Assembly (NCBI GenBank): GCA_030589225.1
Contig: JAUUWD010000014.1
Coordinates: forward strand, 1-12,664
Length of the DNA: 12,664 bases
Reading direction: 5' to 3'
Source of the DNA: Desulfobacteraceae bacterium
GTDB taxonomy: Bacteria; Desulfobacterota; DSM-4660; Desulfatiglandales; Desulfatiglandaceae
The notes beneath the pieces were generated by a model. The model had not been told where the DNA came from and did not search any database. It saw only the letters and a program-made list of their open reading frames with translations. Each line of letters begins with the position of its first letter. Positions within the stretch are counted from its first letter, which is position 1. Shown one piece after another: positions 3,091 to 7,684 of this stretch. A program made the translations under genes and the position numbers.

Positions 3091-4186
3091 GAGGAAACCC
3101 ATAACTTCAGGTTACGATTATATGATTCTCATACCTGTCATCTTACTAATCGGGCTGGGATTTGTATTCGTATATAGTGCGAGTTCTCACCTCGCTGCGC
3201 ATCGACTGGGTGACAGTTACTTCTATCTCAAAAGGCAAGCTCTATTTTGTTTATTCGGGTTTTGTCTTATGTTAATTGCAAAACATATCCCATGCACTTT
3301 CTACTCCAGGCTGGTCTATCCCCTGCTGCTTGTCAGTTTTTCTCTCTTGATTCTGCTGTTTATTCCGGGCATCGGATACAAGGTGGGCGGCGCCACGAGG
3401 TGGTTGAGATGGGGCGGGTTTTCCTTTCAGCCCTCGGAACTGGCAAAATTTTCGTTGGCCGTTTATTTGGCGTACTCCATGTCTAAGAAGGGATCAAACA
3501 TGGGGTCGTTTTCAAAAGGGTTTTTGCCGCACATACTCATTGCAGGGGCATTTATGCTGCTCATCGTCCTTCAACCAGACCTTGGAACAGCCGTCATTAT
3601 GGGCTGCTGGTTCTTAATTGTCTTATTTGTAGGCGGTGTCAAATTCACACAGCTTTCTTTGAGTATTATTCTTTCCGCTCCATTTGTCCTGTGGCTGATC
3701 TGGGCCGCTGATTACAGGCTTAAGAGATTGTGGGCCTTCATTCACCCCTGGGACGATCCCAAAGGCGTAGGTTTTCAGATTATACATTCTTTTTTGGCTT
3801 TTGGGTCCGGAGGCATTTTCGGAACAGGTCTCGGTAACAGCAAACAGAAGCTATTTTATCTGCCTGAGCCTCATACAGACTTTATTTTCTCTATAGCGGC
3901 TGAAGAACTGGGGTTCATTGGAGTGATTGTCATCATCGTTCTGTTCGGCATCCTGATCATGCGGGGGATAAAAATAGCCCTCAATGCCACAGATCTCTAC
4001 AGCAGTTATCTGGCCCTCGGGTTGACTTGCTTGATCGGCCTTCAGGTCCTGGTAAATATGGGCGTGGTCATGGGACTTCTTCCCACCAAAGGGTTAACGC
4101 TGCCGCTCATCAGCTATGGGGGATCATCCCTGGTTCTTAATCTTTTGAGCATTGGTATCCTGCTGAGTATCTCTTCGAGAACATAG
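3083..4186 (+). CDS. ftsW: Septal peptidoglycan glycosyltransferase FtsW (SEDS family)
   Basis: FtsW is the SEDS-family polymerase that links lipid II into glycan strands at the septum, working with a class B penicillin-binding protein. I choose ATG 3083 (MAKRKPITSGYDYMIL), giving 367 residues. The frame is open to 2942, but that upstream part lies inside murD and reads as charged, non-homologous sequence; GAGAG at 3070-3074 suits the 3083 start. The protein has about ten hydrophobic helices. SEDS signatures are present: WGGFSFQPSELAK (110-122), HPWDDPKGVGFQ (221-232), YLPEPHTDFIFSIAAEELG (259-277) with D266 matching the catalytic aspartate of the family, and GLTLPLISYGGSS (337-349). The 8-base overlap with murD implies translational coupling. 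RodA is the alternative SEDS member, but the dcw position and the ISYGGSS ending support FtsW. Confidence 0.95.
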   Translation: MAKRKPITSGYDYMILIPVILLIGLGFVFVYSASSHLAAHRLGDSYFYLKRQALFCLFGFCLMLIAKHIPCTFYSRLVYPLLLVSFSLLILLFIPGIGYKVGGATRWLRWGGFSFQPSELAKFSLAVYLAYSMSKKGSNMGSFSKGFLPHILIAGAFMLLIVLQPDLGTAVIMGCWFLIVLFVGGVKFTQLSLSIILSAPFVLWLIWAADYRLKRLWAFIHPWDDPKGVGFQIIHSFLAFGSGGIFGTGLGNSKQKLFYLPEPHTDFIFSIAAEELGFIGVIVIIVLFGILIMRGIKIALNATDLYSSYLALGLTCLIGLQVLVNMGVVMGLLPTKGLTLPLISYGGSSLVLNLLSIGILLSISSRT

Positions 4187-4200
4187 GGAGATAGAAGCGG

Positions 4201-5307
4201 TTGATAGATATAAAATCCAAAACGCCCTTAAGATGCCTTATAGCAGGCGGCGGAACAGGGGGACATCTTTTCCCGGGTATCGCCATTGCAAGGGAATTGG
4301 AAAAAAGATTTGAGGAAAAAGAGATCCTCTTCGTGGTGGGGCACCGAAGGATGGAATCGGATCTATTGGCACGATATGGATACAGGGTAACGTCCATTGA
4401 TGTAGAAGGGCTAAAAGGACGTGGATGGAAAAAGGGATTCAGCGTAATGGTCAAATTGCCTAAAAGCATTTTTCAATCTGCCTCAATCATAAAGAAATTT
4501 TCTCCTTCTCTGGTCCTTGGGGTGGGAGGCTATTCAGCCGGTCCTGTCTGTCTAACGGCCAGGTTTATGGGGATACCCACGGCAATCCATGAACAAAACT
4601 CCTATCCTGGCCTCACGAATCGCCTGCTATCTCGGGTTGTTGGCCGGATTTTTATCTCTTTTGAGGAAAGCAGAGCCCACTTTAACGTCAATTCAGTTTT
4701 CTTTACAGGTAATCCGGTTCGCGATGAGCTCTTTTCGCATGACCGAATGGAACCTGAAGGCCGGAAAACATTTACAATCCTGGTTGTGGGCGGAAGCCAG
4801 GGGGCCACGGCCATAAATAAGAGTTTCGCAGAAACCCTGGAATACCTGAACGCAAGAGGAAGAAATCCGGCAGTGATCCACCAGACCGGGGAGGCAGATT
4901 ATGAACGCGTTGTTAATGATTACCGGGATAGAGGACTCAGGGCAGAACTGTTGCCCTTTATTCAAGACATGACCGCTGCCTATAACCGGGCCGATCTGGT
5001 GGTTAGCAGGGCAGGAGCAACTACCATCTTTGAAATGGCTGCGCTGGGAAAGCCTTCTATTTTAATTCCCTATCCCTATGCGGCGAATCAACATCAGGAG
5101 ATTAATGCCAGCAGTTTAGTTGGAGCAGGCGGCGCCGAAATGATCCATCAAAGTGATTTGAACGCGGAGACCCTCGCTCAAGTTTTGATTAAATATATGG
5201 ATGATCCTTCGGCCTTAAAAAAAATGAGTACATGCACAAAAAAAATGGCACGCCCTAATGCCGCAAAGGAAATTGTGGATCATTTACTGGAGATGATCAA
5301 GCAATGA
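4201..5307 (+). CDS. murG: UDP-GlcNAc--lipid I N-acetylglucosamine transferase MurG
   Basis: MurG is the GT28 family enzyme that adds GlcNAc to lipid I to give lipid II at the cytoplasmic face of the inner membrane. The 368 residues show the N-terminal glycine-rich loop GGGTGGH (16-22), the second loop LGVGGYSAGP (106-115), HEQNSYPGLTNR (130-141), the third glycine loop VGGSQGATAIN (196-206), the UDP-GlcNAc site SRAGATTIFEMAALGKP (269-285) and PYPYAANQHQ (290-299). The start is TTG at 4201: an in-frame TAG sits at 4192-4194, and no ATG or GTG lies between it and the glycine loop. GGGAG at 4186-4190 is an acceptable ribosome binding site. The gene lies 14 bases after ftsW, and its stop overlaps the murC start (ATGA). 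Confidence 0.96.
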   Translation: MIDIKSKTPLRCLIAGGGTGGHLFPGIAIARELEKRFEEKEILFVVGHRRMESDLLARYGYRVTSIDVEGLKGRGWKKGFSVMVKLPKSIFQSASIIKKFSPSLVLGVGGYSAGPVCLTARFMGIPTAIHEQNSYPGLTNRLLSRVVGRIFISFEESRAHFNVNSVFFTGNPVRDELFSHDRMEPEGRKTFTILVVGGSQGATAINKSFAETLEYLNARGRNPAVIHQTGEADYERVVNDYRDRGLRAELLPFIQDMTAAYNRADLVVSRAGATTIFEMAALGKPSILIPYPYAANQHQEINASSLVGAGGAEMIHQSDLNAETLAQVLIKYMDDPSALKKMSTCTKKMARPNAAKEIVDHLLEMIKQ

Positions 5308-6683
5308 AGCAGTTCGGGAAGGCAAAGCACATCCACTTTGTTGGTATCGGTGGCATCGGAATGAGCGGAATTGCAGAGCTCCTTATCAACCTGGGCTACG
5401 AGGTAAGCGGTTCCGATCTGAAAGACAGCCCCATGACGAGGCGACTTGCTGCTCTCAGTGGGCTCGTTTTCAAAGGGCACAAGGAGGAGCATGTTGAAGG
5501 AGCCGACGTGGTGGTATATTCCTCGGCCGTGGTAAGCGAGAATCCTGAGATCCAGGAGGCAAAAAAGCGTTCTATTCCCGTTATTCCGAGGGCGGAGATG
5601 CTGGCGGAGCTGATGAGGCTCAAATACGGTGTAGCCATCGCAGGCGCCCATGGAAAGACGACCACAACCTCCATGGTAGCCTCCATCCTCACATGTGGGC
5701 ATATGGATCCGACAGTGGTCATTGGCGGAAGACTCGATATCTGGGGCGGGTCAAATGCCAAACTCGGACAGGGGGATATTCTGGTTGCAGAAGCGGATGA
5801 AAGCGATGGGTCTTTTCTTGCGTTATCTCCTGCCATAGCTGTGGTTACGAATATAGATCATGAGCATATGGATTATTATGGGGACATGGAGACAATTCGT
5901 GAGACATTCATCAGTTTCATTAATAACATTCCCTTCTATGGGACGGCCATACTTTGCATAGACAATGAAGAAATCCAGGGGATTATCCCCCGTCTTAAAA
6001 AAAGATACTTGACCTACGGCATGACCTCTCAGGCAGATTTGAAAGGGCGGGATTTGGAGAAAGAAAAACTGGGAGTTAGTTTCGAAGCCCTTTATCACAA
6101 CAATTCATTGGGCAGGATTGCTGTGGGAATACCAGGCGAACACAATATGCTGAATGCCCTGGCCGCCACAGCCGTTGGTCTTGAACTGGACCTGGACATC
6201 GGGGTAATCAAGGAGGGACTCAAGAACCTGGGGGGGCTGGCAAGACGATTCCAGCTCAAAGGCGAAAAGAGGGATATCCTTGTCCTTGATGATTACGGTC
6301 ATCATCCAACCGAGATAACGGCCACATTGAAAACGGCTAAGGAATGCTGGCCTGAAAAGCGGCTGATCGTTGTTTTCCAGCCGCACAGATATACACGGAC
6401 CGAAGCCCTGTTTGATCGTTTTGTAATTAGTTTTAATGAAGCAGATGTCCTGATTGTGACCCCTATATTTTCCGCAGGGGAGACTGCCATTGACGGAGTG
6501 ACTGGGGAATGGTTATCACGGGGCATTAAGGAACACGGCCACAAGGACGTGATTTTTAGCCCCACACAGGAAGATGCTCTATCCACCCTTTTGTCAATAT
6601 TACGACCTGGGGACCTGGTAATAACTCTCGGCGCTGGCGACATTCACCGATTAGGTGCAAGACTTTTGGATAAGTTGGATTAG
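5304..6683 (+). CDS. murC: UDP-N-acetylmuramate--L-alanine ligase MurC
   Basis: MurC adds L-alanine to UDP-MurNAc, the first amino-acid step of the stem peptide, in the cytoplasm using ATP. The 459 residues carry the UDP-binding Rossmann motif HFVGIGGIGMSGIAE (11-25), GSDLKDSP (36-43), the P-loop GAHGKTTT (114-121), EADESDGSF (163-171), TNIDHEHMDYYG (182-193), GEHNMLNALAA (278-288), DDYGHHPTEI (329-338) and FQPHRYTRT (358-366). Length and motif order are standard. The ATG overlaps the murG TGA by four bases, so coupling is likely. The stop is TAG, and the next in-frame stop is also TAG (6729-6731). After murC there is a 62-base gap before murB, the longest in the murF-ftsQ unit. Confidence 0.98.
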   Translation: MKQFGKAKHIHFVGIGGIGMSGIAELLINLGYEVSGSDLKDSPMTRRLAALSGLVFKGHKEEHVEGADVVVYSSAVVSENPEIQEAKKRSIPVIPRAEMLAELMRLKYGVAIAGAHGKTTTTSMVASILTCGHMDPTVVIGGRLDIWGGSNAKLGQGDILVAEADESDGSFLALSPAIAVVTNIDHEHMDYYGDMETIRETFISFINNIPFYGTAILCIDNEEIQGIIPRLKKRYLTYGMTSQADLKGRDLEKEKLGVSFEALYHNNSLGRIAVGIPGEHNMLNALAATAVGLELDLDIGVIKEGLKNLGGLARRFQLKGEKRDILVLDDYGHHPTEITATLKTAKECWPEKRLIVVFQPHRYTRTEALFDRFVISFNEADVLIVTPIFSAGETAIDGVTGEWLSRGIKEHGHKDVIFSPTQEDALSTLLSILRPGDLVITLGAGDIHRLGARLLDKLD

Positions 6684-6745: not shown

Positions 6746-7684
6746 ATGGATAAACGTCAGAAAGAGGAACTAAGTAGATTAGGAGTTGAGGGCGTTCGGT
6801 TTGATTGTTCAATGGCCCAGCACACCACTTTTCGTGTAGGAGGGCCAGCAGAGTCCCTTTATTAGGCGAAGGATGCGGAAAATCTCCGACGTGTCATCGC
6901 GTTTCTGAATAGAGAGGAGATTCCCTATCTCGTGGTGGGCAGAGGCAGCAACCTGCTGGTAAAGGACGAAGGGCTTGAAGGAGTGGTTATCCTGCTTCGC
7001 GGACCACTCGCTGGCATGGCACAGGAAAAACCAGACCCGTCTGTGTCTAACTTAAGGGCGCATGATATGACAGTTCACGCAGGTGCGGGCCTGCCCATTG
7101 TAGATCTTTTGATTCACTGTCGCGATTCCGGATATGGAGGGCTGGAATTTCTTGCCGGGATACCTGGAACGGTTGGCGGGGCAGTAGCCATGAACGCAGG
7201 GGCGTTTGGGAAAGAGATCGGAGACCGGGTGAAAGAGATCAACGTGATCACTACAGGAGGTGACGTAGTTGCAACAAACCGGTCTCAGCTTAAATTCTCA
7301 TACAGGGCGCTTCATATGGAGAAAAAGAGCGTGATCATAGGAGCCTGTCTCAAAGTAGAGACAGAGGACGTAAAAACTATTGCTAACAAAATTGCGGGTT
7401 ACCTGAAAAGGCGAAAAAAAAGTCAACCGATAGAATACCCATCGGCAGGCTCGGTATTCAAGAACCCACCGAATGATTATGCGGGCAGGCTTATCGAACA
7501 TGCCGGTCTCAAAGGCAAGAAGATCGGAGGGGCCATGATATCAGAAAAACACGCTAACTACATTGTAAATACTGGCGATGCCACAGCAAAAGATATCCTG
7601 GAACTCCTGTCCTTGACTCAGGAGAAAGTGAGAAAAGAGACCGGCGTAAAACTGGAGCCGGAAATTAAAGTCGTCGGCAGATAA
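6746..7684 (+). CDS. murB: UDP-N-acetylenolpyruvoylglucosamine reductase MurB, interrupted by in-frame TAG at codon 40
   Basis: MurB is the FAD enzyme that reduces UDP-GlcNAc-enolpyruvate to UDP-MurNAc using NADPH. The frame from ATG 6746 spans 312 codons and is clearly homologous throughout. It shows QHTTFRVGGPAESLY (25-39), GRGSNLLVKD (65-74), LEFLAGIPGTVGGAVAMNAG (133-152), the active-site YR (186-187), AGSVFKNP (234-241) with S236 matching the catalytic serine, HANYIVN (269-275) and LEPEIKVVG (303-311) with E306 matching the family glutamate. It resembles the shorter type II MurB. Codon 40 is TAG (6863-6865), in the same frame on both sides, so one base substitution rather than a frameshift explains it. 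The uninterrupted part begins at GTG 6932 and lacks the first FAD-binding segment. An in-frame TAG at 6716-6718 and the lack of other start codons fix ATG 6746 as the family-like start; AGGTG at 6730-6734 is a plausible binding site. Functional status is uncertain. Confidence 0.88.
6863..6865 (+). other. In-frame amber codon within murB
   Basis: This TAG falls between SLY (codons 37-39) and AKDAENL (codons 41-47) of an otherwise continuous MurB frame. The position is just after the conserved TTFRVGG motif, in a segment where related proteins vary. One-base changes would give E, K, Q, W, L, S or Y. The sequence cannot tell whether this is an error, a real nonsense mutation or a decoded codon. 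Confidence 0.9.

Follow-up and report, generated by a model that had tools for sequence, protein, structure and literature searches.

An isolated in-frame TAG in murB of a Desulfobacteraceae draft genome probably reflects a consensus error or a recent nonsense allele

How can the gene for MurB, a normally essential enzyme, carry a stop codon within an otherwise open frame? The window analyzed here, a stretch of 12,664 nucleotides that constitutes contig 137 of an uncultured bacterium's draft genome (355 contigs totaling 2,005,481 bases, with a completeness of 66%), holds such a frame between murC and ftsQ. The frame, running from 6746 to 7684, reads MDKRQKEELSRLG...GGPAESLY*AKDAENLRR...KVVGR*, with the TAG at codon 40 as its sole internal stop and no frameshift (Table 1). 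An initial annotation had described it as MurB-like on both sides of the TAG, and this description held. Pfam matched both FAD_binding_4 and MurB_C in frame after the TAG, identifying the piece after the stop as MurB. The 39-residue piece before the TAG, which yielded no match in a Pfam scan, could be aligned with MurB homologues, with T27, G32 and G33 identical in all 119 homologue rows that have a residue there. When read through, the frame resembles solved MurB proteins (4pyt, 1hsk, 1mbb and others). The annotated absence of decay in the flanking dcw genes was also borne out, as the remaining complete genes of the window's cell-wall cluster are all open.

Table 1. Positions of the murB features and neighboring stop codons in the window, and of in-frame stops on other contigs of the same draft
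Feature	Location	Strand	Observation	Basis
ftsW stop	4184..4186	+	TAG; TGA at the same codon in both genus mates	stop alignment
murC stop	6681..6683	+	TAG; TAA at the same codon in both genus mates	stop alignment
murB codons 1-39	6746..6862	+	5' of the stop; conserved T27-T28-F-R-V-G32-G33 motif	translation, homologue alignment
murB codon 40	6863..6865	+	in-frame TAG; variable column	translation, codon and homologue alignments
murB open frame after the stop	6866..7681	+	272 codons; most of FAD_binding_4, whole MurB_C	Pfam
Longest ORF beginning downstream of the stop	6932..7681	+	begins with GTG at 6932; 250 aa, without residues 1-62	ORF list, Pfam
murB end	7682..7684	+	normal TAA; TAA also in both genus mates	stop alignment
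livM-type permease	L251 (contig 116) 322-324		in-frame TAG; Lys and open frame in both genus mates	
Lytic transglycosylase	L154 (contig 19) 2096-2098	minus	in-frame TAG, 42 codons upstream of the conserved end; relatives have K, N, R or G	
DUF3795 gene	L173 (contig 38) 1915-1917		in-frame TAA; E, K or G in relatives, close ones open at 157 aa	
HdrA-type protein	L145 (contig 10) 1367		in-frame TGA	
Second HdrA-type protein	L224 (contig 89) 5916	minus	in-frame TGA	upstream piece profile-scanned
DUF1573 protein	L180 (contig 45) 2110	minus	in-frame TGA	complementary Pfam matches on both sides
AhpC-type peroxiredoxin	L253 (contig 118) 692		TGA in frame where the peroxidatic Cys is expected	

An isolated stop in a conserved gene

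The reading we prefer, with a probability of about 0.72, holds murB to be normal but for a lone nonsense base, the TAG, which would be either a consensus error or a very recent or minor nonsense allele. In the first case, the draft consensus would be wrong at one base, through error or minority reads; in the second, a very recent nonsense allele would be present in part of the population. Of the two, error or minority reads are favored over a true minority allele. Either way, TAG at codon 40 would end translation as TAG does elsewhere in the draft, and living cells of the species would carry an intact murB. Because MurB is normally essential and the sequenced part of the genome holds one murB match, a stop that is both real and fixed would have to be explained in some other way.

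Single-base nonsense codons are a known class in draft and metagenome-assembled genomes. The murB case resembles this class in being isolated and lineage-specific, in lying in an otherwise conserved frame and in coming from an assembly where every stop type is represented among such codons, but departs from it in affecting a normally essential gene whose dcw neighbors are undamaged. Among the entries listed in literature searches, no title concerned an interrupted murB in this bacterial group.

The initial annotation had proposed aligning close relatives at codon 40, and we compared the draft with two genus mates, G001 and G002, in an ungapped codon alignment. Both mates carry an intact murB with a sense codon at this position (G001, 93% identical, Glu; G002, 91% identical, Asp). 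Full-length database MurB proteins of at least 80% identity likewise have a sense residue there in 21 out of 21 cases (20 Glu and one Asp, the latter being P0008, G002's own protein). The earlier suggestion of a base error or strain-specific mutation is therefore the one that fits best. Across 120 database homologues, the column contains E (92), K (14), T (5), D (3), N (3), Q (1) or R (1), plus a single gap in the row of the truncated protein P0022, which lacks the region; codon 40 would tolerate various residues. The nearest full-length database homologue is only 94% identical, so no intact same-species murB was identified in this comparison, which was made at the level of clusters rather than of their individual members. 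Among the sequences compared, the TAG is lineage-specific. Establishing that the stop is isolated and confined to one lineage keeps a false claim of recoding out of the record.

Apart from the stop, the changes unique to this murB comprise four nonsynonymous and seven synonymous substitutions, with no gap columns. Set against a neutral expectation of about 76% nonsynonymous changes (binomial P 0.006), these counts indicate that murB has not long been decaying, and the remainder of its sequence appears to be under selection. An ordinary pseudogene was rejected on the same grounds, as neither relaxed selection nor further lesions were found on this branch. Such a pattern is compatible with a stop that arose very recently, is present in only some cells or is read through, and equally with a base error. 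In the six genes for which all three sequences were available, the branch of the draft carries 47 nonsynonymous to 66 synonymous changes and the branches of the mates 53 to 93 and 91 to 168, that is, the nonsynonymous share of the draft is nominally slightly higher. Separately, the murG of G001 (L036, approximately 4238-5333) shows a one-base gap relative to the window's murG, which could mean a frameshift in the G001 draft at this point.

TAG usage and other interrupted frames

According to the initial annotation, mraY, ftsW, murC and ftsA in the window end in TAG, and these nearby stops weigh against general recoding. The stops are correct as stated, and the argument was strengthened by a wider survey. 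The ftsA stop is TAG in both relatives and the mraY stop is TAG in the one relative covering it; the ftsW and murC stops align with other stop codons (Table 1). In 111 contigs without N, including the window (669,100 bases), 391 stop-terminated ORFs reach a length of 200 codons or more; their stops are TAA (155), TGA (144) or TAG (92). For the 376 in which the tail could be measured, the median distance to the following in-frame stop was 11 after TAG, 11 after TAA and 10.5 after TGA, with no difference by stop type (Mann-Whitney P 0.57 and 0.32). Neither depletion of TAG stops nor coding tails after TAG were found in these 669 kb. The share of TAG, the tails and the alignment of the ftsW and murC stops with TGA and TAA together show that TAG terminates translation in this genome. 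RF1 was found in all three genus genomes. In G002, two RF1 (prfA) matches exceeded the cut-off (L259 and L260, contigs 112 and 91), possibly reflecting mixed strains or binning.

Outside murB, the draft contains further nonsense codons, with TAG, TAA and TGA all represented. An intrinsic, codon-bias-based search for interrupted genes did not recover murB; it was too weak and was replaced by lists of same-frame ORF pairs. These lists covered 60 contigs plus the window at tails of at least 25 codons (63 pairs) and 60 contigs at tails of at least 12 (105 pairs), and were judged by eye, a subjective procedure that may miss cases. We kept murB, livM, the lytic transglycosylase, the DUF3795 gene, an acyl-CoA dehydrogenase with an in-frame TGA and four selenocysteine-like TGAs (Table 1). 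In the acyl-CoA dehydrogenase, the profile matches of the pieces overlap, so the locus looks rearranged and counts only weakly. A further TAA (L199, 3098) was dropped, as its two sides match unrelated families (HTH_17 and Bro-N).

With the selenocysteine-like TGAs set aside, TAG accounts for three out of five nonsense lesions (P 0.32, given a one-step TAG share of 0.40), or three out of four (P 0.18) when the rearranged locus is dropped. Leaving out murB, which had been noticed for its TAG, gives two out of four, or two out of three without the rearranged locus. There is thus no significant TAG bias among the lesions, and the stop types fit chance. Three lesions lie in frames longer than 300 codons, and it speaks against the preferred reading that all of them are TAG; the TAA lesion lies in a 157-codon frame. 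Taking nonsense codons as 4% of substitutions, five of them correspond to about 1.9e-4 unselected substitutions per base, which we judged plausible and ordinary for a draft consensus.

The four remaining TGAs appear to be of a different kind. Those in the two HdrA-type proteins stand where, judging by the motif, such proteins usually carry Cys, and are likely selenocysteine codons; the same reading is likely for the peroxiredoxin. The TGA of the DUF1573 protein falls on the apparent first Cys of a CGC motif, making this protein a possible, candidate selenoprotein. A tRNA-Sec gene is present in the draft (L274).

Suppression, a second copy or re-initiation

Natural nonsense-suppressor tRNAs are known, and a tRNA of this kind is the strongest competitor of the preferred reading: an ordinary tRNA mutated to a CUA anticodon would partially read some TAGs, and nonsense codons would persist at tolerant sites of murB, livM and the lytic transglycosylase. 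These three TAGs do interrupt otherwise open frames at positions occupied in relatives by varied or polar residues (E or D in the genus mates for murB, K in both mates for livM, and K, N, R or G in the lytic transglycosylase). Moreover, 15 tRNA genes were found (14 plus tRNA-Sec), about a third of a full set, leaving many unseen. None of these 15 has a CUA anticodon, which is weak evidence given how clearly incomplete the set is; ARAGORN, run on 120 sampled contigs, returned three tRNA genes, again none with CUA. Against suppression also speak the TAG share of the lesions, which fits chance, the occurrence of TAA and TGA lesions and the ordinary tails after TAG. A suppressor tRNA is possible but not indicated, and we regard this explanation as unlikely.

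A broader form of the idea, in which a natural amber-suppressor tRNA of the lineage would place one of the standard amino acids at scattered TAGs and thereby let murB and other essential genes tolerate internal stops while TAG continues to end further genes, appears quite improbable. It shares with known suppressor systems that scattered TAGs in sense positions would be allowed at tolerant sites; unlike in those systems, none of the tRNAs found here carries CUA and the lesion types fit chance. Should independent reads confirm the stop, murB would represent a natural essential gene that depends on readthrough, giving reason to seek suppressor tRNAs in uncultured relatives.

Alternatively, the stop could be real and fixed, with MurB activity supplied by another murB copy, as the initial annotation had also considered, or by a substitute gene, either of them lying in the third of the genome that the draft lacks. 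The 66% completeness of the draft, in which a search returned the one murB match and no second copy, leaves room for such a gene. However, 29 out of 30 relatives have one match each (the remaining one has none), and the interrupted copy shows no relaxed selection. We give this explanation a slim chance.

Re-initiation downstream of the stop, another of the earlier proposals, fared worse. Translation would restart at the GTG at 6932 and the resulting product would have to work as MurB. The ORF exists, and a database protein of equal extent is on record: P0022, a 250-aa MurB that starts at the equivalent GTG and is 97% identical to the full-length P0009. Yet the restart product lacks the first 29 positions of FAD_binding_4 and, with T27, G32 and G33, residues that are invariant in 119 out of 119 homologues with a residue there. 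This loss of the TT..GG motif makes a working enzyme unlikely, and re-initiation as a whole highly improbable. As P0022 begins at the same GTG, another relative may also be interrupted upstream; if so, the case for something biological would rise. The longest contig for P0022 is 249,280 bases (ENA).

Pyrrolysine genes in the family

Another lead of the initial annotation, decoding of the TAG as pyrrolysine, was not supported and is very unlikely: pyl genes do occur in the family, but PylS exceeded the curated cut-off of its profile (TIGR02367) in none of the three genus genomes (66%, 87% and 63% complete, which leaves room for a miss), TAG behaves as a normal terminator and codon 40 of murB is a variable position. 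Weak PylS and PylB matches below cut-off in the draft were discounted, since the same searches match 13 out of 14 control genomes, one of them above cut-off. Targets of the system gave no further indication, with no match in the draft to PF09505, used as the test for methylamine methyltransferases, and no internal stop in its single PF06253 (MTTB) match.

Among 46 family genomes, PylS above cut-off was found in one, G056. Its cluster (L130, contig 19) contains, in a row, PylB, tRNA-Pyl, PylS, PylC and a PylD of which the locus end leaves just the start; the PylB and PylC matches exceed their NCBIfam cut-offs. Used as a DNA query against the 46 genomes, the pylT of G056 matched itself alone, so that no second true positive was at hand to gauge the reach of this search.

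Compared with the marine Deltaproteobacteria that decode pyrrolysine (Kivenson et al. 2021, PMC8318568), our draft belongs to the same broad group by label and resembles those bacteria in its tRNA-Sec and selenocysteine-like TGAs and in the pyl genes of a family mate. It differs from them in that its genus has no PylS above cut-off, its TAG lies at a variable position of a housekeeping gene and TAG is a common stop. As a separate observation, an MTTB-family gene in G001 (L132, contig 492) contains one in-frame TGA.
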